A DNA stretch of 64,000 bases, from positions 372,001 to 436,000 of the forward strand of contig NC_015636.1 in NCBI RefSeq assembly GCF_000179575.2, written 5' to 3'. A program made the translations under genes and the position numbers. Shown here one piece after another: positions 9,182 through 24,733 of the stretch. This stretch comes from Methanothermococcus okinawensis IH1 (GTDB lineage: Archaea > AGJL01 > Methanococci > Methanococcales > Methanococcaceae). The notes below the pieces were generated by a model. It made no database searches, was not told the origin of the DNA, and saw nothing but the letters and a program-made list of their open reading frames with translations. Within the stretch, counting starts at the first letter, position 1. Each line of letters opens with the position of its first letter.

Positions 9182-9315
9182 TAATCCAAAAATCTCCATA
9201 TTTCATAATATGTTTTATTTAATTTTTTATTTTTAATATTTATTTTTATTTTAACCAAAAATTTTATATATAACTATGTATTATTTAATAAAAGTAAATA
9301 AATTATATATAAATT

Positions 9316-9389: not shown

Positions 9390-9447
9390 TTTTTATTTTT
9401 AGTGGATATTCATATTTATATATTGTTTTAAAAAAATAAAAATATTA

Positions 9448-10308
9448 TTATAATATCTCTTTTAATGCAGATGGTATTTCTGAAATTTTTCTTACAACAT
9501 GAGCTCCGGCATTTTTTAATGTATTCATTTTACTTTCCGCTGTGCCTACTCCTCTCTCTATAATTGCTCCGGCATGTCCCATCCTCTTACCTTCGGGTGC
9601 TGTTTGTCCTGCAATATATGCTATTACTGGTTTTTTCATTTTTTTAATATATTCTGCTGCTATTTCTTCATTACTTCCTCCTATTTCTCCAATCATTACA
9701 ATAGCATCTGTATCTTTATCATTTTCAAACATTTCAAGTATTTCAACATATCCAAGACCAATAGTTGGGTCTCCCCCTATTCCTACACAGGATGATTGTC
9801 CAAATCCATTACTTATCAATTCATTTGCAATTTCATAGGTTAATGTTCCACTTCTTGAAACCATTCCGATTCTTCCTTCTTTTAAAACTTTCATAGGAAT
9901 AATACCTAATTTCCCAACCTTTGGAGATGCGATTCCTGGGGTATTTGGTCCAATTATTTTAACTCCTTTCTGTTTTGCATAATTTATTATATCCATTGTA
10001 TCATGAACGGGGATATGTTCTGTAATAATTACCACAAGCTCAATACCTGCATCAATTGCCTCATAGGCTGCATCCTTTGCAAATGGTGCTGGAACGAATA
10101 TTACTGATGCGTTTGCACCGTGTTTCTCAACAGTTTCCGCAACTGTATCATATACAGGAATTCCATAAATTTCTTTTCCACCTTTTCCAGGAGTTACTCC
10201 TGCAACTATATTTGTTCCGCATTCAAGCATATTTTTTGTATGGAAACTTCCCTGCTTTCCCGTAATTCCCTGAACTATTGCTCTTGTGTTTTCATCTAAA
10301 AGTATCAA
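9448..10308 (-). CDS. sucD: Succinyl-CoA synthetase (ADP-forming) alpha subunit
   Basis: A 286-residue protein. It has the CoA-binding motif [12 protein letters not shown] near the N-terminus, [23 protein letters not shown], and [11 protein letters not shown], in which the His is the phosphorylated catalytic residue. It pairs with SucB, which is not in this window, to interconvert succinate and succinyl-CoA. In methanococci this belongs to the incomplete reductive TCA route. AGAGGTGAAATTTTG precedes the start region. A separate subunit gene is usual here. Confidence 0.95.
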
Positions 10309-10866
10309 AATTTCACCTCTCTTCTAAGTATATACTAAAAAGTAAAATATAATATAATAAAAATAAAAATAAATAATTAATAATATCATTTAAATCGGTA
10401 AGTTAAATATATATTGCCTCCTATTTTAAATAATTTATTAATAATATGTTGATAGAATTTTAATTTATCTTTTATCTATGATTAATAATTATTATGTCCT
10501 GTTTTTATTTCTCATAAAACTAAAAACCTGAGCTCGGAAAATTACCCATAATACTAATTTAAAAATAATAAATATTAAACATTCCATGACCTGATACTTT
10601 TAAATATCATTTTTATAACATTATATCGTGGATGAGGAACATTATAAAAAATACGGATATATGCCGGTAAATTATAGTAATCAATTACGTTAATTTATAT
10701 AATCAATAAATATAACCATCAAATCTTAAAAACGATTTAAACCTTATTTTACCTCACTAATTAACAACAAACAAAAACAATAACTAAAAAACATAATTAC
10801 ATTTTAAAAAATTGTATTGTTGTTATTGATAATGTCAATATTGTTAATAATATATGGGGAAAAACT
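10309..10866. other. Non-coding scar with possible remnants of an older integration
   Basis: No gene is supported in these 558 bases. Two things stand out. Around 10624-10660, CGTGGATGAGGAACATTATAAAAAATAC looks like a decayed copy of the att region at 11519-11550. At about 10807-10856 the + frame reads CIVVIDNVNIVNN, resembling the C-terminal tail HTVINNANVVNIK of the element's wHTH gene at 21355. Both lie just upstream of the nuclease gene whose partner in the element also follows that wHTH gene. Confidence 0.4.
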
Positions 10867-11391
10867 ATGCTTAAAAAAATATTCAATGGAAGTAAAAAAA
10901 TATACAAAAAATTAACCCTACCTGAGAAAGAATACAGAACATGGATAGCACATCAAAAAGGAGAGGCTTTTGAAAGTTATGTATTAAATCAATTATTTCC
11001 AGAAGAATATTTTGAAATCTTAGATATGACGCACAATTTTGAAACTAATTCAAAAAGGTATGTTAAAAAATCATTAAAACCAGATTTTCTTTTAAAAGAT
11101 AAAAAAACTGGAAAGATTTTTTATGTTGAATGCAAATACAGAAGTAAATTATATCAAGATAAATTTCACTGGGCTAAAAGTAATGAACAATCTAACAGAT
11201 ACAGAACAATAGAAAAAGAAGAAAACATACAAACATATATAGCTATGGGACTTGGAGGAACTCCAGAAAATCCAGATAATATATATTTAATGCCACTAAA
11301 AGAAATAAAATACAACGCTCTTTTTCCAAGTATTTTAAAAAATTGGGAAATTACAAACAAATATGATGTTTTTAAAATTGTCAATCTTTAA
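10867..11391 (+). CDS. PD-(D/E)XK-fold nuclease-like protein
   Basis: A 174-residue protein. KPDFLLKDKKTGKIFYVECK (about residues 75-94) has the D...ExK spacing of a restriction-endonuclease-like active site. GEAFESYV near residue 32 supplies the conserved N-terminal Glu helix. The last 280 bp are almost identical to a frameshifted copy inside the element (22046-22325). The gene lies just outside the left end of that element and may be a relic of an earlier related one. GGGGAAAAACT precedes the ATG. The biological target is unknown; a Holliday-junction or restriction role is possible. Confidence 0.65.
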   Translation: MLKKIFNGSKKIYKKLTLPEKEYRTWIAHQKGEAFESYVLNQLFPEEYFEILDMTHNFETNSKRYVKKSLKPDFLLKDKKTGKIFYVECKYRSKLYQDKFHWAKSNEQSNRYRTIEKEENIQTYIAMGLGGTPENPDNIYLMPLKEIKYNALFPSILKNWEITNKYDVFKIVNL

Positions 11392-11520
11392 AGTAAGTAT
11401 TCTATACCTGAGCTCCGATACTTATAAATACCTTTATAGTTACAGACTTATTTATATATTAATTTATTTAGGTAATTAGCATATAGCATATATAATAACA
11501 GTATAATGACGGTAGTTTCG

Positions 11521-11537
11521 ATGGATGATGAGAGTTA
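11521..11537 (+). repeat. attL: left 17 bp core of the integrated element
   Basis: ATGGATGATGAGAGTTA here is identical to 23829-23845. It contains an ATGATGA box C. To its left GGTAGTT (11511-11517) could pair with AGCTACC (23911-23917) beyond the right copy. This suggests the original uninterrupted host sRNA gene was split here. Confidence 0.75.
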
Positions 11538-11543
11538 TAACAT

Positions 11544-11566
11544 TAAAAATATACCTAAAAGGTATA
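11544..11566 (+). repeat. Left arm repeat of the element
   Basis: A 23 bp sequence identical to 23799-23821, containing the inverted repeat TATACC-TAAAA-GGTATA. It lies 6 bp inside the left core; its twin lies 7 bp inside the right core. It is a likely arm-type binding site for the integrase or the RHH protein. Confidence 0.65.
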
Positions 11567-12041
11567 ATATATGTTTAATACATTACATTATATAAATATT
11601 ACTATTTTAACAATTTTCAAAAAAACGACCTAAAAAGCCTTATTTTTTCAAAGCTTTAAAATCGATTTAAAGCACAATTATAACATTATTACAACAAAAA
11701 AAGCATAAATAAATAAATCAAAAATAAACCTTCTTTTACTTATACTGAAATTTCACAGCTCAACACATTGATAACTATTATTAGCCCTAACGGGCAAGGT
11801 CACAACTAAAAGCTCATAGTAATAATACAACTTAAAAAAGTCAAGATGGCATAGCATAGCTATGCCAATATAAACCGCCTTCGGCGGTAAAGTTTGGGGG
11901 GAGAAAAGAGAAAGTAGACTGGGTTCAGGAGCTCGGTCCCGTAGCATTAACACACATATGTGTGTAAGTAATACTAAAAAATGTGAGCTCTGGCAAAAGA
12001 GTAATAACATATGAAAGGAGAAAAGTTATAAAAAGAGGGGA
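11567..12041. other. Hairpin-rich non-coding left end of the element
   Basis: No gene is supported. Short perfect hairpins line up at about 11780-11960: GCCC-TAAC-GGGC, GGCATAGC...GCTATGCC, CCGCC-TTC-GGCGG and CACACATATGTGTG, interrupted by TTGGGGGGAG and two GAGCTC sites. It is the only long gene-free stretch in the element, so it is the best candidate for a replication origin or a structured RNA. No TATA box or iteron set is clear. Confidence 0.45.
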
Positions 12042-12299
12042 TTATTTCATAAAATCTTTAAGTTTCTTAGGCTTTAATTTACAATATTCCTTATATAATG
12101 CGTCTGCAACACATTTATTTTTGTATGCTGTCTTTTTATTAGATGATTCTTTTGATTTTTTATAAAAACTCTGACTCAGTCTATAAAAATCCAGAGCTTT
12201 TTTTTCGTCAGGTTTTGATTTGGAGAATATACTTTCCTTAACACATGATACAAAATCTGTAAGCCATTTCCTATCATTCCTATCCAAAACTCTTCTCAT
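12042..12299 (-). CDS. Small basic protein, unknown
   Basis: An 85-residue, lysine-rich protein (about a quarter Lys/Arg) with no membrane segment or recognised motif. GAGGTGATTAT precedes the ATG. The ATG lies a few bases after the TGA of the upstream ATPase gene, so it is translated with it as the last gene of the element's minus-strand operon. The charge fits nucleic-acid binding, but nothing more can be said. Confidence 0.6.
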   Translation of the reverse strand: MRRVLDRNDRKWLTDFVSCVKESIFSKSKPDEKKALDFYRLSQSFYKKSKESSNKKTAYKNKCVADALYKEYCKLKPKKLKDFMK

Positions 12300-12303
12300 A
12301 TAA

Positions 12304-12831
12304 TCACCTCATAGACCTAATAAACTCAGAAGCTCTTTTAGCTTTTCTTTTTCTTTCTTTCAGTTTCTGAGCTCTGAAAAATTTTGGAAATCCTTCTTGC
12401 AATAAATCAACTTCAAAAAAAACACCTCCTTCAATAACCAATAAACCAGGAGACAATATATTCAACTCTTTAAACATGGAACGAATATCCTTATCAAACA
12501 ATGATTTACTTGGGGAAGTGGTAATAATCATAGGCAATACCTCTCGTATTTCCTGAATTAATTTTGCAAATTCTCTATTTTTCTTAGAAGAACTATCTCT
12601 TTTATAGAACTTAGTAGCGAAATCATCCAAAAAAATACAATGATAATTACATAAGTCATCAGGTATATCTTCAACATCATAACATATCTTAACCTTAAAG
12701 TTATTACTTATCATCTCGTATGCCATAGCCATCATATGTGTAGTTTTTCCTGAGCCTCTTGCACCAGAAATAATAAAAGAATCATGCTCAGTTTTTTCAA
12801 TATTATATTTTAACCATTCCGAAATTTTCAT
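12304..12831 (-). CDS. P-loop ATPase of the element
   Basis: A 175-residue protein. Walker A GARGSGKTT is at residues 23-31 and Walker B HCIFLDDF at about 68-75. A possible sensor, PMIITTSPS, follows at about 101-109, and the tail is strongly basic. It has only one small RecA/AAA-type core. It is too short for a HerA/FtsK or A32 packaging motor; DnaC-like loaders and virion ATPases of membrane-enclosed archaeal viruses are comparable in size. It lies in an operon with membrane proteins (stop/start overlap with 12828-13097), which favours a virion or membrane role. GGTGAT precedes the ATG. Confidence 0.7.
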   Translation of the reverse strand: MKISEWLKYNIEKTEHDSFIISGARGSGKTTHMMAMAYEMISNNFKVKICYDVEDIPDDLCNYHCIFLDDFATKFYKRDSSSKKNREFAKLIQEIREVLPMIITTSPSKSLFDKDIRSMFKELNILSPGLLVIEGGVFFEVDLLQEGFPKFFRAQKLKERKRKAKRASEFIRSMR

Positions 12832-13097
12832 TTACTATCACCATTCTCCAAACTCTCAACTTCAATAAGACTATACAATTTCCTAAGAACTCCTGGATTA
12901 CTAACTATCTGTATATAATATGGCAACAATTGTGGATTACGATGACATAATCTTGTTAGCCTATTTTTCAACCATTGTTGTTTTATTTCATCTGAAACCT
13001 CAGCTTTTTCCATAACTGATAATAAAAGATTATGGAGCTGGCTCGGATACCTTGGAGGTATTATCGACCTTGCCAACTCCTTCGTATATTCTACCAT
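12828..13097 (-). CDS. Unknown small protein
   Basis: An 89-residue, probably all-helical soluble protein with no recognised motif (MVEYTKELARS at the start, SLENGDSK at the end). The first 68 bp overlap the end of the membrane coiled-coil gene in another frame, with GGTGATGTGA as ribosome binding site inside that gene. Its stop overlaps the ATPase start. Translational coupling makes it likely real and functionally tied to the ATPase. Confidence 0.65.
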   Translation of the reverse strand: MVEYTKELARSIIPPRYPSQLHNLLLSVMEKAEVSDEIKQQWLKNRLTRLCHRNPQLLPYYIQIVSNPGVLRKLYSLIEVESLENGDSK

Positions 13098-14142
13098 TCA
13101 CATCACCTAACATTTTTATAAGTTCTTGCAGTTGCTTATTATCTTCCTCAATAATATCCTCTTCCTCAATTTTTTCTAATTTATCCAGTTCGAATTCACT
13201 AACTTCAGGTTTTAAATCTTTCATATAAATATTTATTAATTTAGAAACAGTTTTAGTAACTTCGCTAGCAAATGCGTTCTTTAATTTCGAATATTCTACA
13301 TACATATTTGAAATCTTCTCATTCATTTCTTTGAAAACATTTGCATTTGTTAGAAATTCTATTTCTGAAAACATATGAACATCAGAAAAAAATATCTTTT
13401 TATTTTCCCAGTCAATTCTATCAACCAACCAAACAATCCCACCATCTTCACCAGTAAAGCTTAAACTTTCTAAGAGCTCATTTTTATAATTTTTAAGTTC
13501 GTTAATTTCATCTTTCAACTGTTCATAACGTTCTCTTGCAGACATATATTCATCTACGATTTTATTATATTCTTTGTAATTAGTTTTTTCTTTTCCAATA
13601 GCTTTTCTGTATGCTTTTTTAATTCTTTTTTTAGTAATTTTTTTAAGGGCTTTGTAATAAAAAATAACCTTCTCTAAATCATCAACAACCTTTTCTTTTG
13701 CTTTTATTTCTGCTTCCAATTCCCTTACTTCTTTAAATAATTTTTCTAATTCTTTAATACTACCTGCAAATTCAATCCTACTAATATATTTCTTTTTCAA
13801 CCCAACTATTTCCCATTCTCCACTTAAAAATAATTTTTTTGGGAAATAGTATGGCGTTATACTTCTTTTTTCTAAATCTACATGAAGAAAAACTAAATAA
13901 TCCACTTTAAAGAAACTTTTAACAAATAAATAAACTGGAAAGAAAAATATAATTGAACCCAATAATATAGAAAATAACCAGAAAGGAGCAAACTTCAAAA
14001 TATAATACAATACAATTAATACAATAGCCACTTTTAAAAATTTCAAAAGAAAAGATTTTAAAGATAAAAATACCTCATACTTCCAATCATACTGATAAGT
14101 AATATTATCAACATTTTTTTTAACTTCTTCCATTATTGCCAC
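13030..14142 (-). CDS. Membrane protein with long coiled coil
   Basis: A 370-residue protein. Residues about 25-75 form two hydrophobic helices (VAIVLIVLYYILKFAPFWLF and the following segment). A long Lys/Glu-rich coiled coil spans about 125-220, then a mixed domain, then an acidic tail with EKIEEEDIIEEDNKQ. It is likely anchored in the membrane with a large cytoplasmic part. No family is recognised. It overlaps the preceding secreted-protein gene by 10 bp and the following gene by 68 bp, so it belongs to the structural/ATPase operon. Confidence 0.7.
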   Translation of the reverse strand: MAIMEEVKKNVDNITYQYDWKYEVFLSLKSFLLKFLKVAIVLIVLYYILKFAPFWLFSILLGSIIFFFPVYLFVKSFFKVDYLVFLHVDLEKRSITPYYFPKKLFLSGEWEIVGLKKKYISRIEFAGSIKELEKLFKEVRELEAEIKAKEKVVDDLEKVIFYYKALKKITKKRIKKAYRKAIGKEKTNYKEYNKIVDEYMSARERYEQLKDEINELKNYKNELLESLSFTGEDGGIVWLVDRIDWENKKIFFSDVHMFSEIEFLTNANVFKEMNEKISNMYVEYSKLKNAFASEVTKTVSKLINIYMKDLKPEVSEFELDKLEKIEEEDIIEEDNKQLQELIKMLGDVNGRIYEGVGKVDNTSKVSEPAP

Positions 14143-14846
14143 CCTGCAAGTATTTCATTCTCCTTTCTCTTTTTTTCTCTTCTAGCGATTAATATAGCAA
14201 GCACCAATGCCAAAATACCACCACTTATGAAATAAACTATTTTCGAAAGTATTAACTGCCCAACTTCAACCTTAGTATATGTTTTCTGTTCTTCATTATA
14301 ATAATCAATATAATCTTGATGTATAACAGTCAAACAGCCTGTGTCAAATATTGTATCATTAGCTGTCTTATTACTATTACAAATTACTCTAAATCTAACC
14401 TTATTTACTTCTCCATTAAAATTAAACTTAAATTTAACATAACTATCGCTAAAATTGTATTCTTTCAAAGTATCATTATTTACATAAACAAATAAAGCTA
14501 AATTTTTATTATTTTTATTAAAAACATCCAAATAAACACTATCGTAAATTATGAAACATTTTTCTTTATATGCTAATGAAATTGAACTATTTTCATGGGC
14601 GGATATAATATGAACATCAAAATCATTACTGGCTTTATAAATCTTCCCATAATTAGTTTTATCCAACAATCTATAATCATATTTTATTGATTTTACATCT
14701 TTAAAAATCGAATATGTTTTATTCTGAATACTTTGAACTGATTCATTTACTATGTTTTTAGTAATATTTCCAGTATTTTCAGCAAAAGCAAATGAGCTCA
14801 TGTATAATAAAAATAAAAATAAAATAAAAATCAAACGCATCCTCAT
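14133..14846 (-). CDS. Type I membrane glycoprotein-like protein
   Basis: A 237-residue protein with a classical signal peptide (RLIFILFLFLLYMSSFAFA, cleavage likely after AFA at about 22). An exposed domain with many N-x-S/T sequons follows, then a C-terminal transmembrane helix (about 205-225) and a short basic tail REKKRK. The topology is that of a spike or receptor-like surface protein. It overlaps the next small membrane gene and the downstream coiled-coil gene. No homologue is recognised. Confidence 0.7.
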   Translation of the reverse strand: MRMRLIFILFLFLLYMSSFAFAENTGNITKNIVNESVQSIQNKTYSIFKDVKSIKYDYRLLDKTNYGKIYKASNDFDVHIISAHENSSISLAYKEKCFIIYDSVYLDVFNKNNKNLALFVYVNNDTLKEYNFSDSYVKFKFNFNGEVNKVRFRVICNSNKTANDTIFDTGCLTVIHQDYIDYYNEEQKTYTKVEVGQLILSKIVYFISGGILALVLAILIARREKKRKENEILAGWQ

Positions 14847-15049
14847 AAAAACACCTTTTTACCTGTATTCCAAACCAAAGCACCCCAACAAAAATCAATA
14901 ATATTACAAAGTAAATCCGAAAGTTCTATCTTAAAACCAAATAAAGAAACCAAATCATGACTTCCTAAAATAGGATACAAAAATAAATTCTTAAACAAAA
15001 TATCTTGTATCCCAAAAAAACCAATAACAAATAATATTATAGTTATCAA
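14843..15049 (-). CDS. Small hydrophobic protein
   Basis: A 68-residue protein with an N-terminal hydrophobic helix and a second weaker one. The start is TTG at 15049; GAGGCGA lies rather far upstream, so the start is uncertain. Its stop overlaps the ATG of the secreted protein downstream. It could be a small membrane component of a particle. Confidence 0.5.
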   Translation of the reverse strand: MITIILFVIGFFGIQDILFKNLFLYPILGSHDLVSLFGFKIELSDLLCNIIDFCWGALVWNTGKKVFL

Positions 15050-15092
15050 TCCCCAATCTCGCCTCTTGAAATATTTTCTTTTTTTTTATAAA

Positions 15093-15359
15093 TCATTCAT
15101 CATCATCTCCCAAAAATTCTCCTATAATTGGAAGTTTTTTACCAAACCAAAGAAGCAAGAGCAAAGTCACCAAAATAACTGCCAAGTACACAATAGGAGC
15201 TCCGATACCAAACTGGCTTGAACTTGAACTAGCAATATCCCAAGTATGGAAATAATAACTAATTGGAGATGTAACCAAATCAAAGAATGATTTTATAATA
15301 TTAATAATGCCCTTCATAATTTCAGAAAAAAAACTCTGAAAATAACTAGTAAAATCCAC
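15093..15359 (-). CDS. Small membrane protein with FGIGAPIV motif
   Basis: An 88-residue protein. The amphipathic N-terminal half is followed by SSSSSQFGIGAPIVYL and a strong transmembrane helix (about 55-75), ending in the acidic EFLGDDDE. The FGIGAPIV motif and the helix after it also occur at the C-terminus of the next gene upstream (15371-16239), so the two are related in their membrane anchors. GAGGTGG precedes GTG at 15359, which I prefer over the GTG three codons earlier. A structural membrane protein of the element is plausible. Confidence 0.65.
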   Translation of the reverse strand: MDFTSYFQSFFSEIMKGIINIIKSFFDLVTSPISYYFHTWDIASSSSSQFGIGAPIVYLAVILVTLLLLLWFGKKLPIIGEFLGDDDE

Positions 15360-15370
15360 AAATACCACCT

Positions 15371-16239
15371 CTATGTAGGTATAACTAAACCTATGATAAA
15401 TCTAATTATTCCATAAACTATCAGTATTATTATTATGTATGCCAAAGTCCATACAATCGGAGCTCCGATACCAAAGCTCTCAGAGACTGAATTTACAATA
15501 TTACATACGGAATTAATACCATCTTTAACAAAATTAATACACGATTGAATAAATTTACTTGGTATGCTCAGCAAAGATTTAACAAATGAACCAATTGCAG
15601 AATCTACAACAGAACTTATTAAATTTTCAATATTATTTTTTGTTATACCAACAGCATTTTTTATTGGAGTTACAACCGCATTAATTACAGATGAACCACT
15701 ATCTCCTGAATCATCACTTCCTGAATCATCATCCCAAGAACTGCCTCCATCATCACTTCCTGAATCATCATCCCAAGAACTGCCTCCATCATCACTTCCT
15801 GAATCATCATCCCAAGAACTGCCTCCATCATCACTTCCTGAATCATCATCCCAAGAACTGCCTCCATCATCACTTCCTGAATCATCATCCCAAGAACTGC
15901 CTCCATCATCACTTCCTGAATCATCACGAGCACCAGCACCGCCACCTCCTGAACCACCAGAAACTGTTGATATTGCATTGCTAACCGTTGAAGCTGCATT
16001 TGAAGCCCAAGAACCAACTGTTGAGACCGCAGAACTTACTGTATTGCTAACCGTTGAAGCTGCATTTGAAGCCCAAGAACCAACTGTTGAGACCGCAGAA
16101 CTTACTGTATTGCTAACCGTTGAAGCAACTGAGCCAATAGTATCAGATATACCACTCACAACAGAACCAAAACTCCAAGCATAACAAGAATTTATAGAAA
16201 TGCATAAAATTAAAAGTAAAGCAAAGATTTTTTATTCAT
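15371..16239 (-). CDS. Secreted low-complexity surface protein with FGIGAPIV anchor; reading frame broken near the start
   Basis: The open frame from GTG 16159 gives 262 residues. Two Ser/Ala/Val repeats of about 24 residues (NTVSSAVSTVGSWASNAAST) come first, then five acidic 11-residue repeats of the type SGSDDGGSSWDD (33 bp units, about 15710-15930). A helical region follows, then FGIGAPIVW with a transmembrane end. Upstream, GGTGATTTA and ATG 16239 start a perfect signal peptide (LLLILCISINSCYA) that enters the long frame only if one A is added to the A6 run at 16228-16233. The full gene is therefore probably 16239-15371 with a 1 nt deficit. Confidence 0.65.
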
Positions 16240-16248
16240 AGCATTAAA

Positions 16249-16623
16249 TCACCTTATCAATTTACCAGATGTGAAGTAATTAAATGATACTACACCAAAG
16301 AAAGCAAAATACCCCATTAAAAACATCAGACAATAGGGGTCTCCTGACAAAGCACCTCCAACAACCGAATTCCCAAACTGAGTATAGTATCCAACAATAG
16401 CTCCTAAGAATCCCCCTAATAGACCAGATACAGATTTTAACCTATTAGTAACAGGAGACACATAAGCAGAAACTCCAAGCATTGAACCAATACTCATTAA
16501 TAATGAGCTCATCCAATCTCCAACCAAATACGAAGACAATATACTAAACACTATTGCCAAAAAATAAGGGATAATATGCCCCAAATCAGAAACTGGATTT
16601 TTATGAATTCTATAATAACCCAT
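16249..16623 (-). CDS. Multi-pass membrane protein of the element
   Basis: A 124-residue protein with about four hydrophobic helices and glycine-rich turns (LLGGFLGAIVGYY, SVVGGALSGDP). GGAGGAGATAAT directly precedes the ATG at 16623; the longer open frame upstream is not used. It lies between the two surface-protein genes. Size and topology resemble matrix or internal membrane proteins of membrane-enclosed archaeal viruses, but no sequence family is recognised. Confidence 0.65.
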   Translation of the reverse strand: MGYYRIHKNPVSDLGHIIPYFLAIVFSILSSYLVGDWMSSLLMSIGSMLGVSAYVSPVTNRLKSVSGLLGGFLGAIVGYYTQFGNSVVGGALSGDPYCLMFLMGYFAFFGVVSFNYFTSGKLIR

Positions 16624-16624
16624 A

Positions 16625-17431
16625 TTATCTCCTCCTTCTATTTCTTCTATTAAATAACTCATCATACCACTCAGAAGGATTAATCCAAGGGGTAGCACAA
16701 AGCCCAACAACCAATAATAATATTCCAGATGCTCCAAGCACGATATTTTTTGTAGTAACAGCATTGATTCCTTTTGTGTCGTATAACTCTAATCTTGCTT
16801 TGTATGTTCTACCAACTGGATTACCATCTTCACAGTTTAACCCATCAACAATTATCTGAACTGTCGAATCATCAGCAGATTTCAATAGAATGTTTGGAGT
16901 CACAGGAATTTCAATTTTATATGCTCCTGTTGCGTTGTCATACTCTTTATTGTAATAACAAATATCCCCACTACTCGTCCTGATGACAACCCTACCTGAA
17001 TTATTTTTAAGAACCCCATCTACTGCATTATAATATACTACGATATTATCAACATTCTTTAAAACAGACCTATTAACATCCCACCTAAAAAATGTCTGAG
17101 TCCCTGAACATGACCCCAATTGATTTTTAGTATCTGTAATTACATAGTCCCATCCACTCATTGAAACAACAGGTAATCCATACCTATATTGACCATTCCA
17201 ATACTCAGCTGATTTGCCAAGTATTGTGCTTGAATTAGTATCTGCACTTGATGCAACTAATGTATTTACACCAACATTACCCGCTGTTTTCATCATATAT
17301 CCAACCCCAGCAGGTAATAAAAGACCAACCACTATAACTACCAAAAAACACAGTGCAGCCGACCTTTTAGCCACTCCAACAGCATGCTTCTTAACTTTAT
17401 AAGAAACACGCTTTAAAGAATATTTACTCAA
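16625..17431 (-). CDS. Membrane-anchored surface protein with two transmembrane segments
   Basis: A 268-residue protein from TTG 17431, chosen for GAGGTGG six bases upstream. A basic N-terminus (KRVSYKVKKHAVGVAKR) leads into a transmembrane helix (about 25-45). A beta-rich extracellular domain with Cys pairs and sequons follows, then a second transmembrane helix (IVLGASGILLLVVGL, about 235-250) and the tail FNRRNRRRR. It could be a spike or envelope protein. The 114 bp to the upstream gene (17432-17546) contain TATA-like AT stretches and could hold the promoter of the structural operon. Confidence 0.65.
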   Translation of the reverse strand: MSKYSLKRVSYKVKKHAVGVAKRSAALCFLVVIVVGLLLPAGVGYMMKTAGNVGVNTLVASSADTNSSTILGKSAEYWNGQYRYGLPVVSMSGWDYVITDTKNQLGSCSGTQTFFRWDVNRSVLKNVDNIVVYYNAVDGVLKNNSGRVVIRTSSGDICYYNKEYDNATGAYKIEIPVTPNILLKSADDSTVQIIVDGLNCEDGNPVGRTYKARLELYDTKGINAVTTKNIVLGASGILLLVVGLCATPWINPSEWYDELFNRRNRRRR

Positions 17432-17546
17432 AATATACCACCTCAAAAAACTTACATAATATACTTTACAAAAAAAAGAATATATAACTATCAAAAACGC
17501 CCTAAATGTCTTAAATGTCCTAAATGTCAAAAAATAAAAAAAGTAA

Positions 17547-17843
17547 TTAAAAATTATTATCCTCAAAAGCAAAATAATCCACATCTTTATATTTAACAGA
17601 AACCAAATAGAACTCATAACCATCCGAGCTTCTAAGAACCCTCAAACACAGATGATTACCTTTTCTCGTTGTTATATTAAAACTAATATTCACAAATTCC
17701 CCTTCATCAATAGACAAAGAATCAACATCAAAATTATTTACAAAATCCTCAGCTTTTTTCTTAACCTTTTGTCTTAAATCATCCCTAACTGTATGACTTA
17801 TAATATCTCTAATCTGAATAGCAGTATTTGGAACTAACAACAT
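17547..17843 (-). CDS. Unknown small protein following the replication-like gene
   Basis: A 98-residue soluble protein from ATG 17843 (MLLVPNTAIQ), starting 4 bp after the stop of the 17848-19134 gene, so probably translated with it. Mixed alpha/beta with an acidic middle; no motif recognised. It is the last gene before the likely promoter gap of the membrane-protein operon. Confidence 0.55.
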   Translation of the reverse strand: MLLVPNTAIQIRDIISHTVRDDLRQKVKKKAEDFVNNFDVDSLSIDEGEFVNISFNITTRKGNHLCLRVLRSSDGYEFYLVSVKYKDVDYFAFEDNNF

Positions 17844-17847
17844 AATA

Positions 17848-19134
17848 TCAAACCTTTTTAAACGATAACAGCATAGATTCATACTCTTTTTGAGAATCCT
17901 CACTACCTAATGTAAATCTCGAATAATCAATCTCATAACCACAATGCTCACAAACATGTTTAAAACACTTATCGGAATACCTCATAATCGAACCACATTT
18001 AGGACATCTATAATATCCTTGAAGTGATAATCTTATCCTCTGAACTGTATCTGACCACCTCCAAAGACCCTTTTTTCCACCCAACTCTTTTTCAAGAGGA
18101 ACTATTAACCTTCGAGACTTTAACCTTTCCCTAAGCCCCTTTGTATGAAAATCAAAAGACAAAACATAAGCCCGACCAAACAAGATAGTCTTTACTAAGT
18201 CCAATGGCAATTTCCACCATTCAGCATAATCCTGAATCACATCCTCACAAGTCAAAGGCAAAGGCTTCAAAGTTTTAAAATCAAATCCAAATAGTCTATA
18301 AGATTGCTCAATTCCATATTTCACTGAATTAACCAAATAATCTACATCACCAGAGAGCCACATTCTTGAAACTTCAGAATTCCAAGTAAATTCATGTCTA
18401 TTAATTCCAGCTCCTTTTTGATAACGTTTCCACTGAATATGAACACTTTTTTTATCTGGTGTGTAATACTCAGTTTGAGTCAAATCACCATAAACTTTAA
18501 GATAATTATGTTTTCTTTCATCAGTTATATGTCGAAACTGAAGAGACTCACAATGTAACCATTCAACACATACCTCAGCAGATTGAACTGATAACCTAAC
18601 CAACTCAGAAATGTCATAACCCCTAAAAATATCAAAAATATCAATACCAAATAATTTTTTTAAGTAATAAACATACTCAATCTTAAAATGCTCAAGTCTA
18701 TCAACAAACAACCTACAAAACTCCCTTAACAAACTATCATTTTCATCTTCAAGAACATCAATGGGCAATACATTATCATCTTTATATGAGTCCTGATAAG
18801 GATTTAAGCCATGCTCCTTCATAAATAACCTATTAACATTAAAATAACCCCTTGCCCTGTAAGGACTTCTTAAAGATATTGATAAAGATGCTATTTCCCT
18901 ACCATCTAATGACTTTTCAATATCATCCTCACTCCAAACCTCAACCGGAACTCGAAAATGAAAATCTCCTCTTTTACCTCTACCCTCCGAAACTCTCTGA
19001 AGAAATTGCGGAAACTCCTCCTTTAATCTCTCATATACCTTCTTATTAAAACTATTACCTAATTTAGAATATAAAAAGGGTATATCCATAGTGAGATACA
19101 CCCTATCTATAACTATTCTCCTCTCAGAGCTCAC
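17848..19134 (-). CDS. Candidate replication initiator with C-terminal zinc ribbon
   Basis: A 428-residue protein, the largest of the element. The central part (about 215-270) has KSVHIQWKRYQKGAGINRHEF, reminiscent of the K-G...R-x-E strand pattern of phage and plasmid replication initiation factors. Residues about 378-402 form a zinc ribbon (CPKCGS...CEHCGY). I do not see a clear HUH pair or a catalytic tyrosine motif, so the initiator assignment rests on size, position and the ribbon. GTG 19134 overlaps the end of the preceding gene, and GGTG lies upstream. Confidence 0.45.
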   Translation of the reverse strand: MSSERRIVIDRVYLTMDIPFLYSKLGNSFNKKVYERLKEEFPQFLQRVSEGRGKRGDFHFRVPVEVWSEDDIEKSLDGREIASLSISLRSPYRARGYFNVNRLFMKEHGLNPYQDSYKDDNVLPIDVLEDENDSLLREFCRLFVDRLEHFKIEYVYYLKKLFGIDIFDIFRGYDISELVRLSVQSAEVCVEWLHCESLQFRHITDERKHNYLKVYGDLTQTEYYTPDKKSVHIQWKRYQKGAGINRHEFTWNSEVSRMWLSGDVDYLVNSVKYGIEQSYRLFGFDFKTLKPLPLTCEDVIQDYAEWWKLPLDLVKTILFGRAYVLSFDFHTKGLRERLKSRRLIVPLEKELGGKKGLWRWSDTVQRIRLSLQGYYRCPKCGSIMRYSDKCFKHVCEHCGYEIDYSRFTLGSEDSQKEYESMLLSFKKV

Positions 19135-19537
19135 CCTTAAACACCTTCAATACATCCTCTTCTGAAACTCCATAATCTTTACCAAGTAATTTTAAAGTTG
19201 TTAAACTTACACCACTAGCTTTAACTTTTTTTAATTCTTCTATCTTATTCAACCTTGCACCCTCATCTATCGAATTTCTAAAATCTTTATTATTATTGTA
19301 TGCCTCAACTATCTTCAATACATCCCAATGAGTCAAATGCAATTCTTTTGATAACTCCCTAGATGGACAGTTAGCATAAGAAGAAATCAAAACATATCCC
19401 GAATTCGCAGGGTCAAATGAATGTATTATTTTAGAAGTATCATCTTTCACAGAACTATGTGGATACGAAACAATCTTACCATAAGACAAGTTAATCCTCA
19501 CTGGCTTAGGTATCTTATCCAAATCAATTAATGCCAC
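19124..19537 (-). CDS. Unknown protein with C-terminal HTH-like module (copy 1)
   Basis: A 137-residue protein. GTG 19537 is preceded by GGAGGTGAATAAA. The last 30 residues (KASGVSLTTLKLLGKDYGVS...VLKVFKGEL) match in pattern the tail of the next gene upstream (RGASESTIRCYAKDLGLS...VDKVLSGGE). Both read like a compact helix-turn-helix (xGxSxxTxK..xKDxGxS). Residues 60-80 (LSKELHLTHWDVLKIVEAY) may be a second HTH. Probably DNA-binding; it overlaps the replication-like gene. Confidence 0.55.
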   Translation of the reverse strand: MALIDLDKIPKPVRINLSYGKIVSYPHSSVKDDTSKIIHSFDPANSGYVLISSYANCPSRELSKELHLTHWDVLKIVEAYNNNKDFRNSIDEGARLNKIEELKKVKASGVSLTTLKLLGKDYGVSEEDVLKVFKGEL

Positions 19538-19538
19538 T

Positions 19539-19958
19539 TTATTCACCTCCTGACAATACTTTATCAACTACATCATCAGACAATCCTAAATCCTTAGCAT
19601 AACACCTTATTGTTGATTCACTTGCTCCTCTCTTTAACATTGATTTTAATTCCCATATTTTGCCATTGGTATATAGACAATCAAAAAACTCCTTAAAACT
19701 CTCATTTACAACCATTGCATCATAGAATTCTTTAAGAATTGAAATTGGAATATTCACAATATAACCCATAGACCCATCTTTTTTCTTGTATGAGTGAACA
19801 CTATCTAAAAATAGCGTTATTCTACCTTCCTTCGAATCATCTGGATAATACTTTCCATCTTCAGCCTTAGACTGACCTCTTTCAATTATCATCTGCACAT
19901 CATTCCTAAACAATTTACCATAAATTACTGCTCTTTTTTCTTTTGCATCATATTTCAT
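19539..19958 (-). CDS. Unknown protein with C-terminal HTH-like module (copy 2)
   Basis: A 139-residue protein, beta-rich in its first half (KRAVIYGKLFRNDVQMII). It ends in the same HTH-like module as the gene just downstream (see 19124-19537). The spacing of 1 bp to that gene and a 4 bp overlap with the upstream gene indicate an operon. The shared tail points to a domain duplicated within the element. Confidence 0.55.
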   Translation of the reverse strand: MKYDAKEKRAVIYGKLFRNDVQMIIERGQSKAEDGKYYPDDSKEGRITLFLDSVHSYKKKDGSMGYIVNIPISILKEFYDAMVVNESFKEFFDCLYTNGKIWELKSMLKRGASESTIRCYAKDLGLSDDVVDKVLSGGE

Positions 19959-20215
19959 GATTCCAACCTCACAACTTGATAATTTCCATTTAAATAAATT
20001 ACTTTAATATAATCTCCCTGTTTCAAATTATTAGTCCTCAACGGAAGAATATATTTATCACGACCATCTGAAACGATGTATTTATATAATGTAACAAACT
20101 TACTACCCAATGGCTCACAGTATATATTATATTCAACAACTTTGATTCTTTCAGGAGCAAAACCTCCAACAACTTTAAACTCTCGAAATATTGCAGATTT
20201 TCTAACTTCTCTCAC
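19955..20215 (-). CDS. Unknown small beta-rich protein
   Basis: An 86-residue protein with alternating hydrophobic strands (KVVGGFAPERIKVVEYNIY, GDYIKVIYLNGNYQVVRL), suggesting a small beta barrel such as an OB or SH3-like fold; this is only a reading of the pattern. GGTGAAAAT is upstream, and it overlaps both neighbours by 4 bp. Confidence 0.5.
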   Translation of the reverse strand: MREVRKSAIFREFKVVGGFAPERIKVVEYNIYCEPLGSKFVTLYKYIVSDGRDKYILPLRTNNLKQGDYIKVIYLNGNYQVVRLES

Positions 20216-20433
20216 ATATTTTCACCTCCAAGAATCAACTGGAAGTGTTTCCGATATAATTGAGTTTTAATATCAACCTTCTTTTTAACTTTTTCAAACT
20301 CTTCTTTTGAAACATTTTTAATTTCACAACCAAAACCATCAAACAAATCTTTCTTTTTTTGGAAATCTATCCTACTCCTTGCACAACCATATGACTCAGG
20401 AACTCCCTGGACCAATACAATATAATATATCAT
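20212..20433 (-). CDS. Unknown small protein
   Basis: A 73-residue protein from ATG 20433, preferred over ATG 20448 because GGTG sits at the right distance. It starts with MIYYIVLVQGVPESYG, followed by a lysine-rich helical half. No family recognised. It is coupled by a 4 bp overlap to the gene downstream. Confidence 0.45.
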   Translation of the reverse strand: MIYYIVLVQGVPESYGCARSRIDFQKKKDLFDGFGCEIKNVSKEEFEKVKKKVDIKTQLYRKHFQLILGGENM

Positions 20434-20444
20434 GGATAACACCT

Positions 20445-20681
20445 TCAATCAATAAATTCAGAGCACAGTTCAATTATAGAAACAATCTTCTCAATTTCAT
20501 TATCTTCAAAACCCCTTAATTTCAAGCTATTAACAAAACTCCTGTAATCCTCAGGATAATAGTATGCATATGAAGCAGTTATTTCATTATCCTCAACTTT
20601 CTCAAACTCAACAAATGGAGCCAAAAAACCACAATCGCTATCAATAATATATTTTATTTTAATCCTTAATTCTGACAACAT
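20445..20681 (-). CDS. Unknown small acidic protein
   Basis: A 78-residue acidic protein (many Glu/Asp, YYYPEDYRSFVNSL) with no membrane segment. Start MLSELRIKIK. It lies in the same minus-strand series and resembles nothing I recognise. Confidence 0.45.
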   Translation of the reverse strand: MLSELRIKIKYIIDSDCGFLAPFVEFEKVEDNEITASYAYYYPEDYRSFVNSLKLRGFEDNEIEKIVSIIELCSEFID

Positions 20682-20691
20682 AATATCACTA

Positions 20692-21024
20692 TCATAACAT
20701 AACTTCAGAGCTCCGACAGGTTAGTATCAAATAATTTTTGAAACATCCTCCATATTTTTCTAAATTTACAAGCTCAAATTTCATATCATTAATTAACTGC
20801 TTATTAATACGCTTAGCCCAATACCTTTCATCATCTAACTTAAAATATGGAGCTTCAAACTCTATTCTAACAGTATTGCCTTCTACTTTAATGTCACTAC
20901 AATTATTATAATCCCACAAATCACTTTTTATATACTCCAAAGCCTTTATTGCTAATTCCCTCTCAAAATCAGAATATACATTTTTAATCACTGCACTTAT
21001 TCTTCTTTTATCTTCACTCAACAT
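20692..21024 (-). CDS. Unknown soluble protein
   Basis: A 110-residue protein from ATG 21024 (MLSEDKRRIS), with GAGGATGAT at a good distance; it begins 1 bp after the stop of the DUF2080-like gene. It contains SDFERELAIKALEYIK (helix) and a strand-rich middle (IKVEGNTVRIEFEAPYF). No family recognised. Confidence 0.5.
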   Translation of the reverse strand: MLSEDKRRISAVIKNVYSDFERELAIKALEYIKSDLWDYNNCSDIKVEGNTVRIEFEAPYFKLDDERYWAKRINKQLINDMKFELVNLEKYGGCFKNYLILTCRSSEVML

Positions 21025-21025
21025 G

Positions 21026-21187
21026 TTAATCATCCTCTTCTTTTTTGCTGTTAAGTTTAATCTTAACTTCATATTCCACTCCAATATATTCTGCTGGAAC
21101 ATATATTGCCCCTGAATTTCCAGACTGCCTAACTATTCCACTCTGAACAAAGTATCTTTCTGATTTTGATTTTCTACCTCTTGCCAT
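21026..21187 (-). CDS. DUF2080-like small DNA-binding protein (AbrB-type hairpin)
   Basis: A 53-residue protein: MARGRKSKSERYFVQSG..., then RQSGNSGAIYVPAEYIGVEY. The GNSG-x-IYVPxEYxG pattern is that of DUF2080 proteins, small AbrB/SpoVT-like proteins found with transposons and plasmids of methanogens. AAAAGGTGAAACT precedes the ATG. It is the first gene of the minus-strand operon and probably its repressor or a partition-type regulator. Confidence 0.7.
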   Translation of the reverse strand: MARGRKSKSERYFVQSGIVRQSGNSGAIYVPAEYIGVEYEVKIKLNSKKEEDD

Positions 21188-21354
21188 AGTTTCACCTTTT
21201 ATATAACGAACTACTTCTAATATTCGCAGTAGTAATTATTGATAAGACAAATATATAAAGCTTTCTATAATCGAATTAATTCAATATATAAAAGTAATAT
21301 TATATATACAAAAAAAATTAATTTAAGAAATAAAATTAATGCAAAAGGGACAAA
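21188..21354. promoter_or_regulatory. Divergent promoter region of the element
   Basis: A 167 bp gap between divergent genes. On the plus strand, TATATAAAAG (about 21280) and TATATATAC (about 21303) are candidate TATA boxes for the wHTH gene. On the minus strand, CTTTATATATTTG (about 21252-21264) serves the DUF2080/replication operon. As the only divergent junction in the element it is probably its main control point. Confidence 0.5.
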
Positions 21355-21720
21355 ATGCTACTAAAAATTCTATCAAGAAAATATACAAAAAAACTCCTTA
21401 ACATGTTAAATGATAAAGGGAGAGTAAGCTATGGAGAACTAGAAAACACTCTAAAAATAAGTAGTAGCACACTATCACAAATACTAAAAGAATTACAAGA
21501 TTATAACTTAATAACCTACAAAAAAGTTGCAGAAAATAAAAGAATACCAAAAAAATATTATTCACTAACTGAAAAAGGAAAAAAGGCACTAATATTTTAC
21601 AAATTAGAACAAGAATTAGAAAAATTAGATGAAAACCAAAATATCATAATAAAATACCAAATAATAAACAGTAAAAATCACACCGTTATCAACAATGCTA
21701 ATGTTGTTAATATAAAATAA
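21355..21720 (+). CDS. Winged-helix transcription regulator of the element
   Basis: A 121-residue protein. GRVSYGELENTLKISSSTLSQILKEL (about 22-47) is a clear HTH, followed by the wing ITYKKVAENKRIPKKYYSLTE and a C-terminal helix, in the manner of PadR/HxlR/ArsR-type regulators. The tail HTVINNANVVNIK resembles a remnant upstream of 10867. It is transcribed away from the main operon, so it probably controls lysogeny or copy number. AAAAGGGACAAA precedes the ATG. Confidence 0.75.
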   Translation: MLLKILSRKYTKKLLNMLNDKGRVSYGELENTLKISSSTLSQILKELQDYNLITYKKVAENKRIPKKYYSLTEKGKKALIFYKLEQELEKLDENQNIIIKYQIINSKNHTVINNANVVNIK

Positions 21721-21722
21721 TC

Positions 21723-22334
21723 GTGGGTGGTATTGTGGGTTTTATAAAGAAAATTATTAATTTAATTTATGGAAATAAAAACAAACAAAAGAAGCCTAAA
21801 ACATACGAAAAAGACGAAAGATTTATTTCTCCAAGAAAAGAATATAATCAATACCACCAAAAGAAAAACGAAAAAACAAAAAAATTGAATCATTTACAAA
21901 AGGAGAAGCTTTTGAAAATTATATTGAAAACAACTTATTTCCAGAAAAATACTTCATTTTATTAAGCAAAACTCACAACTATGAAACAAATAATAAAAGA
22001 TATGTGGAAGATTCTTTAAAGCCTGATTTAAAGTTTAAAGACAAAAAAACTGGAAAGATTTTTTTATGTTGAATGCAAATACAGAAGTAAATTATACCAA
22101 GATAAATTTCACTGGGCTAAAAGTAATGAACAATCTAACAGATACAGAACCATAGAAAAAAAAGAAAACATACAAACATATATTGCCATGGGACTTGGAG
22201 GAACTCCAGAAAATCCAGATAATGTTTATTTAATGCCACTAAATGAAATCAAATACAACGCTCTTTTCCCAAGTGTTTTAAAAAATTGGGAAATTACAAA
22301 CAAATATGATGTTTTTAAAATCATAAATCCTTAA
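21723..22334 (+). pseudogene. Frameshifted copy of the PD-(D/E)XK nuclease
   Basis: GTG 21723 opens a frame that should continue as FTKGEAFENYIENNLFP... and ...SLKPDLKFKDKKTGKIF-YVECKYRSK. Two frame breaks interrupt it: one A too few in the run at 21878-21884, and one T too many in the run at 22059-22065 (T7, where the intact copy at 11120 has T6). The last 280 bp are almost identical to 11108-11385. The end overlaps the integrase gene convergently. Either a decayed gene or sequence errors in homopolymers. Confidence 0.75.
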
Positions 22335-23196
22335 ATATCCGACTCATGGTTTTGTTTAAATCATTTTTCATAGTGTCCCTATCTGGATGCAAATACTTCG
22401 AAGTAATAGCCATGCTAGAATGACCCATAAGTTTAGATAACACTTGCAAATTCATTCCATGCTTACAAGCTAATGTTCCAAATGTATGACGCAATACATG
22501 AGGAGTAACCTTTACAGACAAACCTTTTGAAACTTCTCTTAGATAATCCCTATACTCACAAATATGACCTTCTGAAAGTTTATATCCATTTTTATTAACA
22601 AGCTTATCAGTCTTAGGATTCAACATTTCTCTATGTTTTATATAATTACTCAAAAAAGGATAAAGTTCATCACAAATAAAAACCATTCTATCTTTATTCC
22701 CTTTACCTCCTCTAATATATACCAACCTATCTTCTAAGTGAATATCATTCATTGTAATATTTTTAAACTCCGATATCCTAACTCCAGTCGTTAAAATAAA
22801 CAGAGTATATACATAATAAAGATAATCTTTAATGTTAGAAAGCAAAATATTAACTTCTTCCTCATTAAGAGATATATCTCTCCCGTTATTCTGCAACTTC
22901 AAGGATTTAACATACAACTTTATATTATTTTGAAGAATATATTTATATTCAACACACCAATCTAAAAACCTTGAAACATCCTTTAATCTTTTAACAACTG
23001 TATCTTTTGAAACTTTTGATAAATACGAATTATAAAAAAATATTGCATCATCAACAGTTATATCATCCCAAGACTTATCTGGAAAAAATTCCATGAAAAT
23101 ATGTAAAGAACTTCTATATCTCTTTAAAGTCTCTTTACTCTTTGAAGAATGAAAATCCAAATACTTCCTGACTAATTCTTTAGATACTTCATTCAA
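22321..23196 (-). CDS. int: Tyrosine recombinase / integrase
   Basis: A 291-residue protein. An N-terminal SAM-like core-binding domain (about 1-95) is followed by the catalytic domain with TGVRISE (Arg), GGKGNKDR (Lys), TPHVLRHTFGT (HxxR), LMGHSS (His) and SKYLHP (Tyr nucleophile). All catalytic residues are present, so it looks active. The start is TTG with GAGGTGG upstream. It lies about 630 bp from attR, downstream of the RHH gene in the same operon. It is the XerC/D-like archaeal type, not the SSV type whose gene is split on integration. Confidence 0.92.
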   Translation of the reverse strand: MNEVSKELVRKYLDFHSSKSKETLKRYRSSLHIFMEFFPDKSWDDITVDDAIFFYNSYLSKVSKDTVVKRLKDVSRFLDWCVEYKYILQNNIKLYVKSLKLQNNGRDISLNEEEVNILLSNIKDYLYYVYTLFILTTGVRISEFKNITMNDIHLEDRLVYIRGGKGNKDRMVFICDELYPFLSNYIKHREMLNPKTDKLVNKNGYKLSEGHICEYRDYLREVSKGLSVKVTPHVLRHTFGTLACKHGMNLQVLSKLMGHSSMAITSKYLHPDRDTMKNDLNKTMSRIFKDL

Positions 23197-23208
23197 AATT
23201 CCACCTCT

Positions 23209-23754
23209 TTAATCCTTAGGAATTATCTCATAATTATCATCAACAACGGGCAACATTTCATCACGAAGCTTAAAATAAATATCTCCATCTTCCCCTATTT
23301 TTCTTTCAACCAATGCGTTAAACTCCTTATCACTCTCTATCAACACCCTAAACTCCCTTTGAAGTGAATAATTTTTTTCCAAACCTAAACGATTTACAAA
23401 TTCAGAAAATGACCACCACTTATAAGCATCCTCATTCATCAAATAAATTAATTTTTCTTTTAATTTCAAAACATTATAACTTGAAACTGAATTATACATA
23501 ATTTCTTTTATTTTATCCAACTCAGATGCTGTATTTTCTTGCAAATCATCTGTCTTAACAGTCAAACTATCCAACTTATTACTTACTTCTTCTAAAAGAT
23601 AATTAAACCTATCAACAACATTTCTATTTTCATAGGTAAATCTCATAGCATATCTGACAAAAGAGCTTAAAGTCATGCCAAACTCTCTTGCCATATCTTG
23701 AAATTCTTTCAACTCTTTTTCATCTTTGAATGTTATCTTCCTACCGACAACCAT
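23209..23754 (-). CDS. RHH/coiled-coil DNA-binding protein next to the integrase
   Basis: A 181-residue protein from ATG 23754 (GGTGG upstream). The N-terminus KITFKDEKELKEFQDMAREF...SSFVRYAMRF looks like a ribbon-helix-helix domain (about 5-45). A coiled coil (about 50-90) and a second domain (SFSEFVNRLGLEKNYSLQREF) follow. It is the first gene of the int operon and lies 45 bp from the right arm repeat, so it probably controls integration or excision. Confidence 0.6.
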   Translation of the reverse strand: MVVGRKITFKDEKELKEFQDMAREFGMTLSSFVRYAMRFTYENRNVVDRFNYLLEEVSNKLDSLTVKTDDLQENTASELDKIKEIMYNSVSSYNVLKLKEKLIYLMNEDAYKWWSFSEFVNRLGLEKNYSLQREFRVLIESDKEFNALVERKIGEDGDIYFKLRDEMLPVVDDNYEIIPKD

Positions 23755-23798
23755 ATATACCACCAATAACATTAGTATATAAGTGTAATTAGAACAAC

Positions 23799-23821
23799 TA
23801 AAAATATACCTAAAAGGTATA
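23799..23821 (+). repeat. Right arm repeat of the element
   Basis: Identical in 23 bp to 11544-11566. It contains TATACC-TAAAA-GGTATA, lies 7 bp inside the right core and upstream of the RHH gene, so it could double as an operator for the int operon. Confidence 0.65.
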
Positions 23822-23824
23822 AAA

Positions 23825-23914
23825 AGCTATGGATGATGAGAGTTACCCCCGCTGACTGAGATGTATACATTAATATATCTCAGGATGACGACATCAGCAC
23901 TGTCTGACACAGCT
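23825..23914 (+). ncRNA. C/D box sRNA used as the element's integration site
   Basis: Box C ATGATGA (23833-23839), a 12 nt guide GAGTTACCCCCG, D' CTGA (23852), a 7 bp internal hairpin (CTGAGAT/ATCTCAG), C' ATGACGA (23885), a 12 nt guide CATCAGCACTGT, and D CTGA (23904). The present ends AGCT/AGCT can pair 4 bp. With the host sequence left of attL (GGTAGTT, 11511) and AGCTACC (23911) the original terminal stem would have been 7 bp. The D' guide could base-pair with a GGGGGUAACU segment of archaeal 23S rRNA; this is inference. Confidence 0.7.
23829..23845 (+). repeat. attR: right 17 bp core of the element
   Basis: ATGGATGATGAGAGTTA, identical to 11521-11537. The core covers box C and the first six guide bases of the sRNA, so integration keeps these functional bases and swaps only the 5' terminal stem. 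Confidence 0.75.
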
Positions 23915-23974
23915 ACCATTTATAGGATTATTTTAAATATTTATATTTTCATAAATTTAATATAATGTGATATT

Positions 23975-24733
23975 ATGCTTTATATCGTTGGAATAGGGCC
24001 CGGCAATGAAGATTTTTTTACAAAAGAGGCAGAATCTATTTTAAATAATGTTGATTTAATTGTCTGCTATAAAGGTTATGAAAAATTTATAAAAAGATTT
24101 AATAAGCCAATTTACACATCAGGTATGAGAAAAGAAATTGATAGAACGATTTATGCACTAAATGAAGCAAAGGATAAAGATGTAGCACTTGTATCAAGTG
24201 GAGACGCCACCATCTATGGTATGGCATCATTAGCCTATGAGCTCAGGCAAAAAAATAACATCAATGTTCCCATAAAAGTGATAGGTGGTTTAACATCTGC
24301 AAGCATATGCTCTGCAATATTGGGAGCTCCGTTAAATCATGATTTTTGTGTAATTAGTTTGAGTGATTTACTTACACCATTGGACGTCATCCTAAATAGA
24401 GTTAAATGTGCATTGGAAGGAGATTTTGTTATTGCAGTATATAATCCATTAAGTAAATCAAGAAAAGAACCATTTTTAAAGACTATTGATATTATTAAAA
24501 ATTATGCCGATGAGAGAAAAATAAATTATATTATTGGAATTGTTAAAAATGCTGGAAGAGATTCAGAAGAATATAAATTAACTACAATAAATGATTTAAT
24601 AAATAATTTGGATGAGCATATGTCATACATTGATATGAATACAACATTAATAGTTGGAAATTCAAACACAAAAATAGTAGATAATAAAATGATTACTCCA
24701 AGGGGCTATTTGAATAAATATTTAAAAGATTAA
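23975..24733 (+). CDS. cobJ: (Cobalt-)precorrin-3 C17-methyltransferase
   Basis: A 252-residue protein. It has LYIVGIGPGNEDFF (the GxGPG SAM motif at residues 2-15), VALVSSGDATIYGMA and FVIAVYNPLSKSRKEP, all typical of CbiH/CobJ in cobamide synthesis, here the anaerobic route. It adds a SAM methyl at C17 with ring contraction. It lies alone immediately right of the integrated element. Its last codons (NKYLKD and stop) are within a 39 bp sequence repeated just downstream. Confidence 0.92.
   Translation: MLYIVGIGPGNEDFFTKEAESILNNVDLIVCYKGYEKFIKRFNKPIYTSGMRKEIDRTIYALNEAKDKDVALVSSGDATIYGMASLAYELRQKNNINVPIKVIGGLTSASICSAILGAPLNHDFCVISLSDLLTPLDVILNRVKCALEGDFVIAVYNPLSKSRKEPFLKTIDIIKNYADERKINYIIGIVKNAGRDSEEYKLTTINDLINNLDEHMSYIDMNTTLIVGNSNTKIVDNKMITPRGYLNKYLKD

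Follow-up and report, generated by a model that had tools for sequence, protein, structure and literature searches.

In the genome of Methanothermococcus okinawensis IH1 (1.68 Mb), an integrated element with 12,291 bp between its cores is found in the stretch of 64,000 nucleotides analysed here and called the window (positions 372,001 to 436,000 of contig NC_015636.1; G000:C2:372001-436000). It is very probable that this element uses, through its integrase, box C of a C/D box small RNA (sRNA) gene as its chromosomal attachment site (attB), gives the gene a new front and stacks serially at the same place. At the level of sequence, this reading draws on att repeats, on empty and filled sites, on one integrase clade, on two sRNA targets and on serial occupation; transcription of the rebuilt sRNA, promoter activity, excision of the element and catalysis at these sites are inferred.

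In the mechanism that we propose, the XerC-like integrase encoded by the circular element would recombine the core of the element's attachment site (attP) with the sequence around box C in a C/D guide RNA gene. Integration would push the old promoter and 5' end to the far side of the element, and the gene would receive from the element's right end another 5' flank, together with a candidate promoter and a box C of the same sequence, so that the boxes and the two guides would all remain contiguous. The rebuilt gene would be targetable again, which would allow elements to stack. In the window, an older element would have inserted first and decayed to 0.9 kb, and the 12.3-kb element would then have inserted on its right.

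The attachment site

The element (11538..23828, no strand) is bounded by two exact copies of a 17-bp core repeat, ATGGATGATGAGAGTTA, attL at 11521..11537 (+) and attR at 23829..23845 (+), as an initial annotation of this DNA had stated. The right-hand copy is directly preceded by AGCT and includes box C and the first guide bases of the sRNA, and the 14-bp heart of the core, GATGATGAGAGTTA, has exact matches at these two sites only in the whole genome. A direct repeat of 24 bp that contains a palindrome, TAAAAATATACCTAAAAGGTATAA, lies 6 bp from each core (11544..11567 and 23799..23822, both +) and on both sides of the core in the reconstructed attP, where 0.01 matches would be expected by chance. 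These repeats look like arm sites for the integrase or a partner protein, and both the repeats and the partner may play a role in directionality. In parallel, AT-rich palindromes were observed on both attP sides in two elements of relatives (G015 and G017) that sit at a second sRNA gene. The predicted circle junction of the window element reads AAAAAGCT-core-TAACATTAAA.

The integrase gene (22321..23196, -) encodes a XerC-like tyrosine integrase of 291 aa (PF00589, E 1.8e-28) whose catalytic residues are intact as judged from an alignment in which R, K, H-x-x-R, H and Y are invariant, and the gene is not split by att, as in type II integrative elements with an intact integrase. By itself, a direct repeat could also reflect duplication of the target site by a transposon, or could have arisen by chance where the DNA is AT-rich. 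Both were rejected and are extremely improbable, since an intact tyrosine integrase adjoins the repeat, the arm repeats are symmetric about the core, unrelated elements have their core at the same position and a single copy is present at the empty site. The tRNA gene closest to the element lies about 2.1 kb to the left of attL, at a distance of over 14 kb from attR, and no tRNA gene stands beside the window site or its sibling sites.

The guide RNA gene

The rebuilt gene (23825..23917, +) is, by its architecture, a real and canonical C/D box sRNA gene, in agreement with the initial annotation, which had read box C and the first guide bases in the core. Box C (ATGATGA, 23833-23839) and box D' (CTGA, 23852-23855) enclose guide 1, GAGTTACCCCCG; box C' (GATGACGA, 23884-23891) and box D (CTGA, 23904-23907) enclose guide 2, CATCAGCACTGT; and the spacer between D' and C' forms a 28-nt hairpin. 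Using a query rebuilt from both flanks, the gene was found in 22 of the 36 Methanococcales genomes that make up the survey set, in all five genera, and because the box and guide architecture recurs in this way a chance origin of the layout is excluded. Rfam gave no family above threshold for the window sRNA.

In a box alignment of the window gene with 20 relatives, nearly all sequences keep box C as ATGATGA, AGTTACCCCC, D' as CTGA, a GATGA-type C', guide 2 and D as CTGA. The D'-C' spacer varies from a few nucleotides up to a long hairpin, with paired changes between G019/G020 and G021. In the same way, the terminal stems covary (ACCTG/CAGGT in G027, GCGTC/GACGC in G005, GTAGTC/GGCTAC in G026), and they are short in other genera. 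An extra 5' hairpin was observed in one genus (g2; loci L045, L055, L056 and L057) between the terminal stem GGTAGC/GCTACC and box C, with arms that vary by species yet look complementary within each.

The D' guide can form 11 Watson-Crick pairs with the 23S rRNA of its own genome (1987-1997), for which the N+5 rule predicts 2'-O-methylation at position 1991. We take this position, from E. coli numbering, to belong to the stem of helix 69. Helices 68, 69 and 71 of 23S rRNA are hotspots of methylation (PMC4644070); the same paper draws on small-RNA reads of M. maripaludis C5 and reports 7 C/D sRNAs.

Integrases and their targets

In the survey set, which takes in the whole phylum in the collection searched, 12 such integrases were found in seven genomes, the window's own counted. 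Eight of them, in six genomes, adjoin C/D sRNA genes: those of the window, G017, G019 and G020 and two in G021 lie beside the window sRNA (sRNA1), and those of G015 and G017 lie beside a second sRNA, ATGATGATTGTCATCCCTG-CTGA...ATGATGAATACAGGGTTA-CTGA. The seven sRNA-adjacent integrases other than the window protein are 47-54% identical to it, and the eight form one clade on the tree (93/89; 96% of bootstrap trees; 0 of 500 shuffles as clustered). The proposal of the initial annotation, namely that of an element with a C/D sRNA gene as attB that donates a replacement 5' end, extends to related integrases and to a second sRNA. For the four remaining integrases (34-38% identity), a pattern search found no adjoining C/D gene, and a search for direct repeats gave none that was convincing.

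The best lead among these four is a 13-bp repeat, TTTGGAAGAGATA, in G016 (G016:C2, L048 around 15760-15773), where an integrase of 38% identity adjoins an RqcH-like gene; the repeat lies just 5' of the RqcH-like start codon and again 9.3 kb away, and may indicate a different type of target. Separately, the window's genome holds a relative of the second sRNA (G000:C2:569839-569852; L004, L081) with the same first guide, AGTCATCCCTG CTGA, which looks unoccupied.

Beyond the survey set, IMG/VR gave no close relative, whether searched with the integrase alone, with the clade alignment or by a scan for the sRNA sequence. The best integrase matches in plasmid and phage collections had about 31% identity or less, and a scan of GTDB contigs, a set from which the window's own order is apparently absent, returned mainly Thermoplasmata at about 33% or less.

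Filled and empty sites

The initial annotation had pointed to relatives as the place to seek the empty site, and empty attB sites are indeed found there in synteny, in species other than that of the window. Their gene order is left host gene, sRNA and cbiH, with one extra small gene between in G033. The sRNA1 element of G017 is flanked by a 17-bp repeat, CGTTGTATGATGACAGT, with copies 17.2 kb apart; on its left, the displaced flank and the empty site of G016 agree in 94 of 99 bases (alignment score 170), against a score of 47 for the element-side flank. At the second sRNA, a 19-bp repeat bounds a 27-kb element in G015 and a 16-bp repeat a 32-kb element in G017, while the site is empty in G016 and G018.

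The five resolved att cores all span box C, with positions -4 to +9 in common, and box C is, on this comparison, the recombination site that the two different guide genes have in common. The integrase could also recognise a DNA motif that overlaps box C by coincidence, the sRNA being merely a conserved and safe address. Tyrosine integrases bind DNA, and GATGATGA is common to both sRNA targets; as a description of mechanism, this idea is even compatible with box C of the sRNA gene being the attB. Taken as a full explanation it is quite improbable, since 8 of 8 clade members lie at C/D sRNA genes, with a chance of about 2.6% per integrase for such a gene within 1.1 kb (at 20 such genes per genome), and since GATGATGA is also found outside C/D sRNA genes.

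The 5' flank of the sRNA in G015 (L056, around 9010-9109), where no element is present, resembles the flank donated by the G017 element and not the empty site of G016, as if 5' modules had been exchanged between lineages. From this resemblance, the G017 element carries a host-like promoter and 5' module.

Serial occupation and the ancestral 5' end

The initial annotation had noted that GGTAGTT (11511-11517), left of attL, pairs with AGCTACC (23911-23917), and had taken this as the means to rebuild the uninterrupted host gene. The pairing is possible, but the original gene is not rebuilt by it, since the ancestral 5' end was traced elsewhere. In the closest relative, G029, the sequence with the sRNA promoter and 5' flank aligns to 10594..10638 (+) with a score of 45 against a shuffle maximum of 29, and with the flank only, 0 of 300 shuffles were as good. 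The promoter and 5' end of G033 align likewise. This segment preserves the ancestral promoter and 5' end of the sRNA as a decayed fossil, in which box C now reads GATGAGGA. When the relatives' 5' flank was compared with 11440-11545, the flank alone did no better than shuffles, and no alignment was found beside attL or attR.

The 0.9 kb between the fossil and attL (10639..11520, no strand) is a probable remnant of an older element. It contains a nuclease-like gene (10867..11391, +) with weak TnsA/PDDEXK matches, which is 45-54% identical to genes inside the sRNA-targeting elements of G015, G017, G020 and G021. The displaced 5' flank, CGGTAGTTTCG (11510..11520, +), is unlike the flank of the gene in relatives. 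Because the relatives' 5' end aligns to 10594-10638 and a gene of the family lies in between, GGTAGTTTCG was most likely donated by the older element. On these grounds GGTAGTT was rejected as the ancestral 5' end, nor does pairing of GGTAG with CTACC restore the original gene. The most economical reading is that an older element of the same family inserted first, donated the flank, lost its integrase and decayed; the sRNA gene of the window was most likely re-fronted twice.

Stacking was also observed in G021 (L043/L044, G021:C4:107380-143883), where a full 34.6-kb element adjoins the sRNA and a remnant made of integrase and partner gene lies beyond it, the tandem junction reading ATATGGATGATGACAG|ATATC. 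G019 seems to keep only a remnant of integrase and partner gene, because the genes to its left are common to G021 and look chromosomal. Tyrosine recombinases are known to use a single att site more than once, in arrays (PMC6563490).

What the element supplies to the gene

The 100 bp of element-derived sequence upstream of box C were scanned on the + strand with a promoter matrix built from the tRNA promoters of this genome. The best site, CGACAACCATATATA (23745..23759, +), resembles a transcription factor B recognition element (BRE) and TATA box and is a candidate promoter supplied by the element; its score of 15.0 falls within the range of real tRNA promoters. It may be coincidental, because the beginning of the partner gene, on the opposite strand, overlaps with it. 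Most tRNA promoter motifs of this genome start 41-66 nt ahead of the mature 5' end.

Together with the host 3' end, the element flank can form a short stem, AGCTATG/CACAGCT, with one mismatch (-5.5 kcal/mol vs -9.5 kcal/mol for the displaced stem). This weaker stem would suit a different outcome, in which the sRNA gene is the attachment site but is left as a silent rebuilt copy, a loss that the host can bear. The sRNA is single-copy, which was likewise counted for a silent copy, and we know of no transcript of the window sRNA. Such silence is nevertheless unlikely: boxes and guides are intact in every filled site examined, old ones included, the empty-site genes of G029 and G033 have even weaker stems, and a tRNA-promoter-like site lies in the element end. 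Decay is seen in the displaced halves, whereas no box is lost from rebuilt genes, and this can be taken as an argument that the rebuilt gene is the functional copy.

Several observations do weigh against an element that restores a working guide gene at box C. No convincing target of guide 2 was found among rRNAs or tRNAs, and the best promoter-like site implies that about 50 nt of leader precede box C and would need removal. Moreover, attL is decayed in the 33-kb element of G020, and that of the G019 remnant was looked for and not found.

Other genes of the element and its neighbourhood

A partner gene (23209..23772, -) lies upstream of the integrase and encodes a putative ribbon-helix-helix DNA-binding protein, recognised by eye and with no Pfam domain. 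Its homologues adjoin every sRNA-targeting integrase except that of G017 at sRNA1, where a shorter, unrelated-looking open reading frame is found. Up to nine proteins are common to the window element and its larger siblings, among them a P-loop ATPase (12304..12831, -), a 428-aa Zn-ribbon protein (17848..19134, -; 32-62% identity in siblings), small proteins, a winged helix protein, the integrase and the partner. A winged-helix regulator is encoded at 21355..21720 (+). The 428-aa protein is a possible rolling-circle initiator, for which the match of its structural model (pLDDT, a per-residue confidence score, of 73) to the initiator 4cij gives a weak hint (E about 1e-4, low TM-scores).

At 15093-16159, two membrane proteins of 91 aa and 262 aa have the motif FGIGAPIV in common, the larger one with GSDDGGSSWDD repeats; both may have a structural role in a virus-like particle. 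The sRNA1 element of G017 (L045, G017:C1:727000-746999) holds, at 6896-15524, a type I-B-like CRISPR-Cas operon with genes for Cas6b, Cas3, Cas5, Cas7, a TM1802-type Cas8, Cas1 and Cas4.

On the right, the host gene is cbiH-like (tetrapyrrole methylase; 23975..24733, +) and adjoins the sRNA in relatives. The left host gene (9448..10323, -) looks by eye like a succinate-CoA ligase alpha subunit, and homologues of 77-82% identity lie near the sRNA and cbiH in G033, G015 and G016.

Relation to known systems

That elements integrate into RNA genes and restore them is a classical observation for tRNA and tmRNA genes, and C/D sRNA genes appear to be a new class of target. In the searchable literature, which covers few subscription journals, no C/D sRNA integration target is named for archaea, and one paper states that mobile features of C/D sRNA genes remain undiscovered so far. 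The present case adds a target class used by a whole integrase clade in at least two guide genes, and suggests that sRNA genes may hide at att sites called intergenic or in elements without detectable limits. It also offers a natural setting where each integration would exchange the promoter and 5' end of a guide for rRNA modification, with an effect on 23S methylation that is directly testable. A wider view, which we put forward tentatively and with some doubt, is that of an integrase lineage specialised on the box C of guide RNAs that switches between sRNA genes, its integrations swapping promoters and 5' modules between strains. If true, mobile elements would be a driver of guide RNA evolution and of its regulation in archaea.

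Among known systems, the Islander-type islands of tRNA and tmRNA genes (PMC4383910) likewise integrate site-specifically into an RNA gene, restore it and leave a displaced fragment, whereas the target here is a 2'-O-methylation guide RNA that is cut at box C. The pT26-2 family, with XerC/SNJ2-like type II integrases, occupies the 3' ends of tRNA-Ser or tRNA-Leu genes in Methanococcales with att sites of at least 50 bp, and some members in M. maripaludis have no detectable limits (PMC6972569). The elements described here have in common with this family a XerC-like integrase, an intact gene beside att and the same host order, but their att sites measure 16-19 bp and lie in C/D sRNA genes and not at tRNA 3' ends. 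T26-6p-type domains of the pT26-2 family, whose members share seven core genes, are present in the G017 element at the second sRNA; none was seen in the window-element proteins scanned. Finally, pTN3-like archaeal integrases have their attB in the 5' half of tRNA genes, and the element supplies the promoter (PMC8371274). As in that system, the 5' part of a structured RNA gene serves here as attB, the element rebuilds the gene and expression would come from the element side; unlike in that system, the target is a C/D guide RNA instead of a tRNA, and the integrase gene is not split by att.

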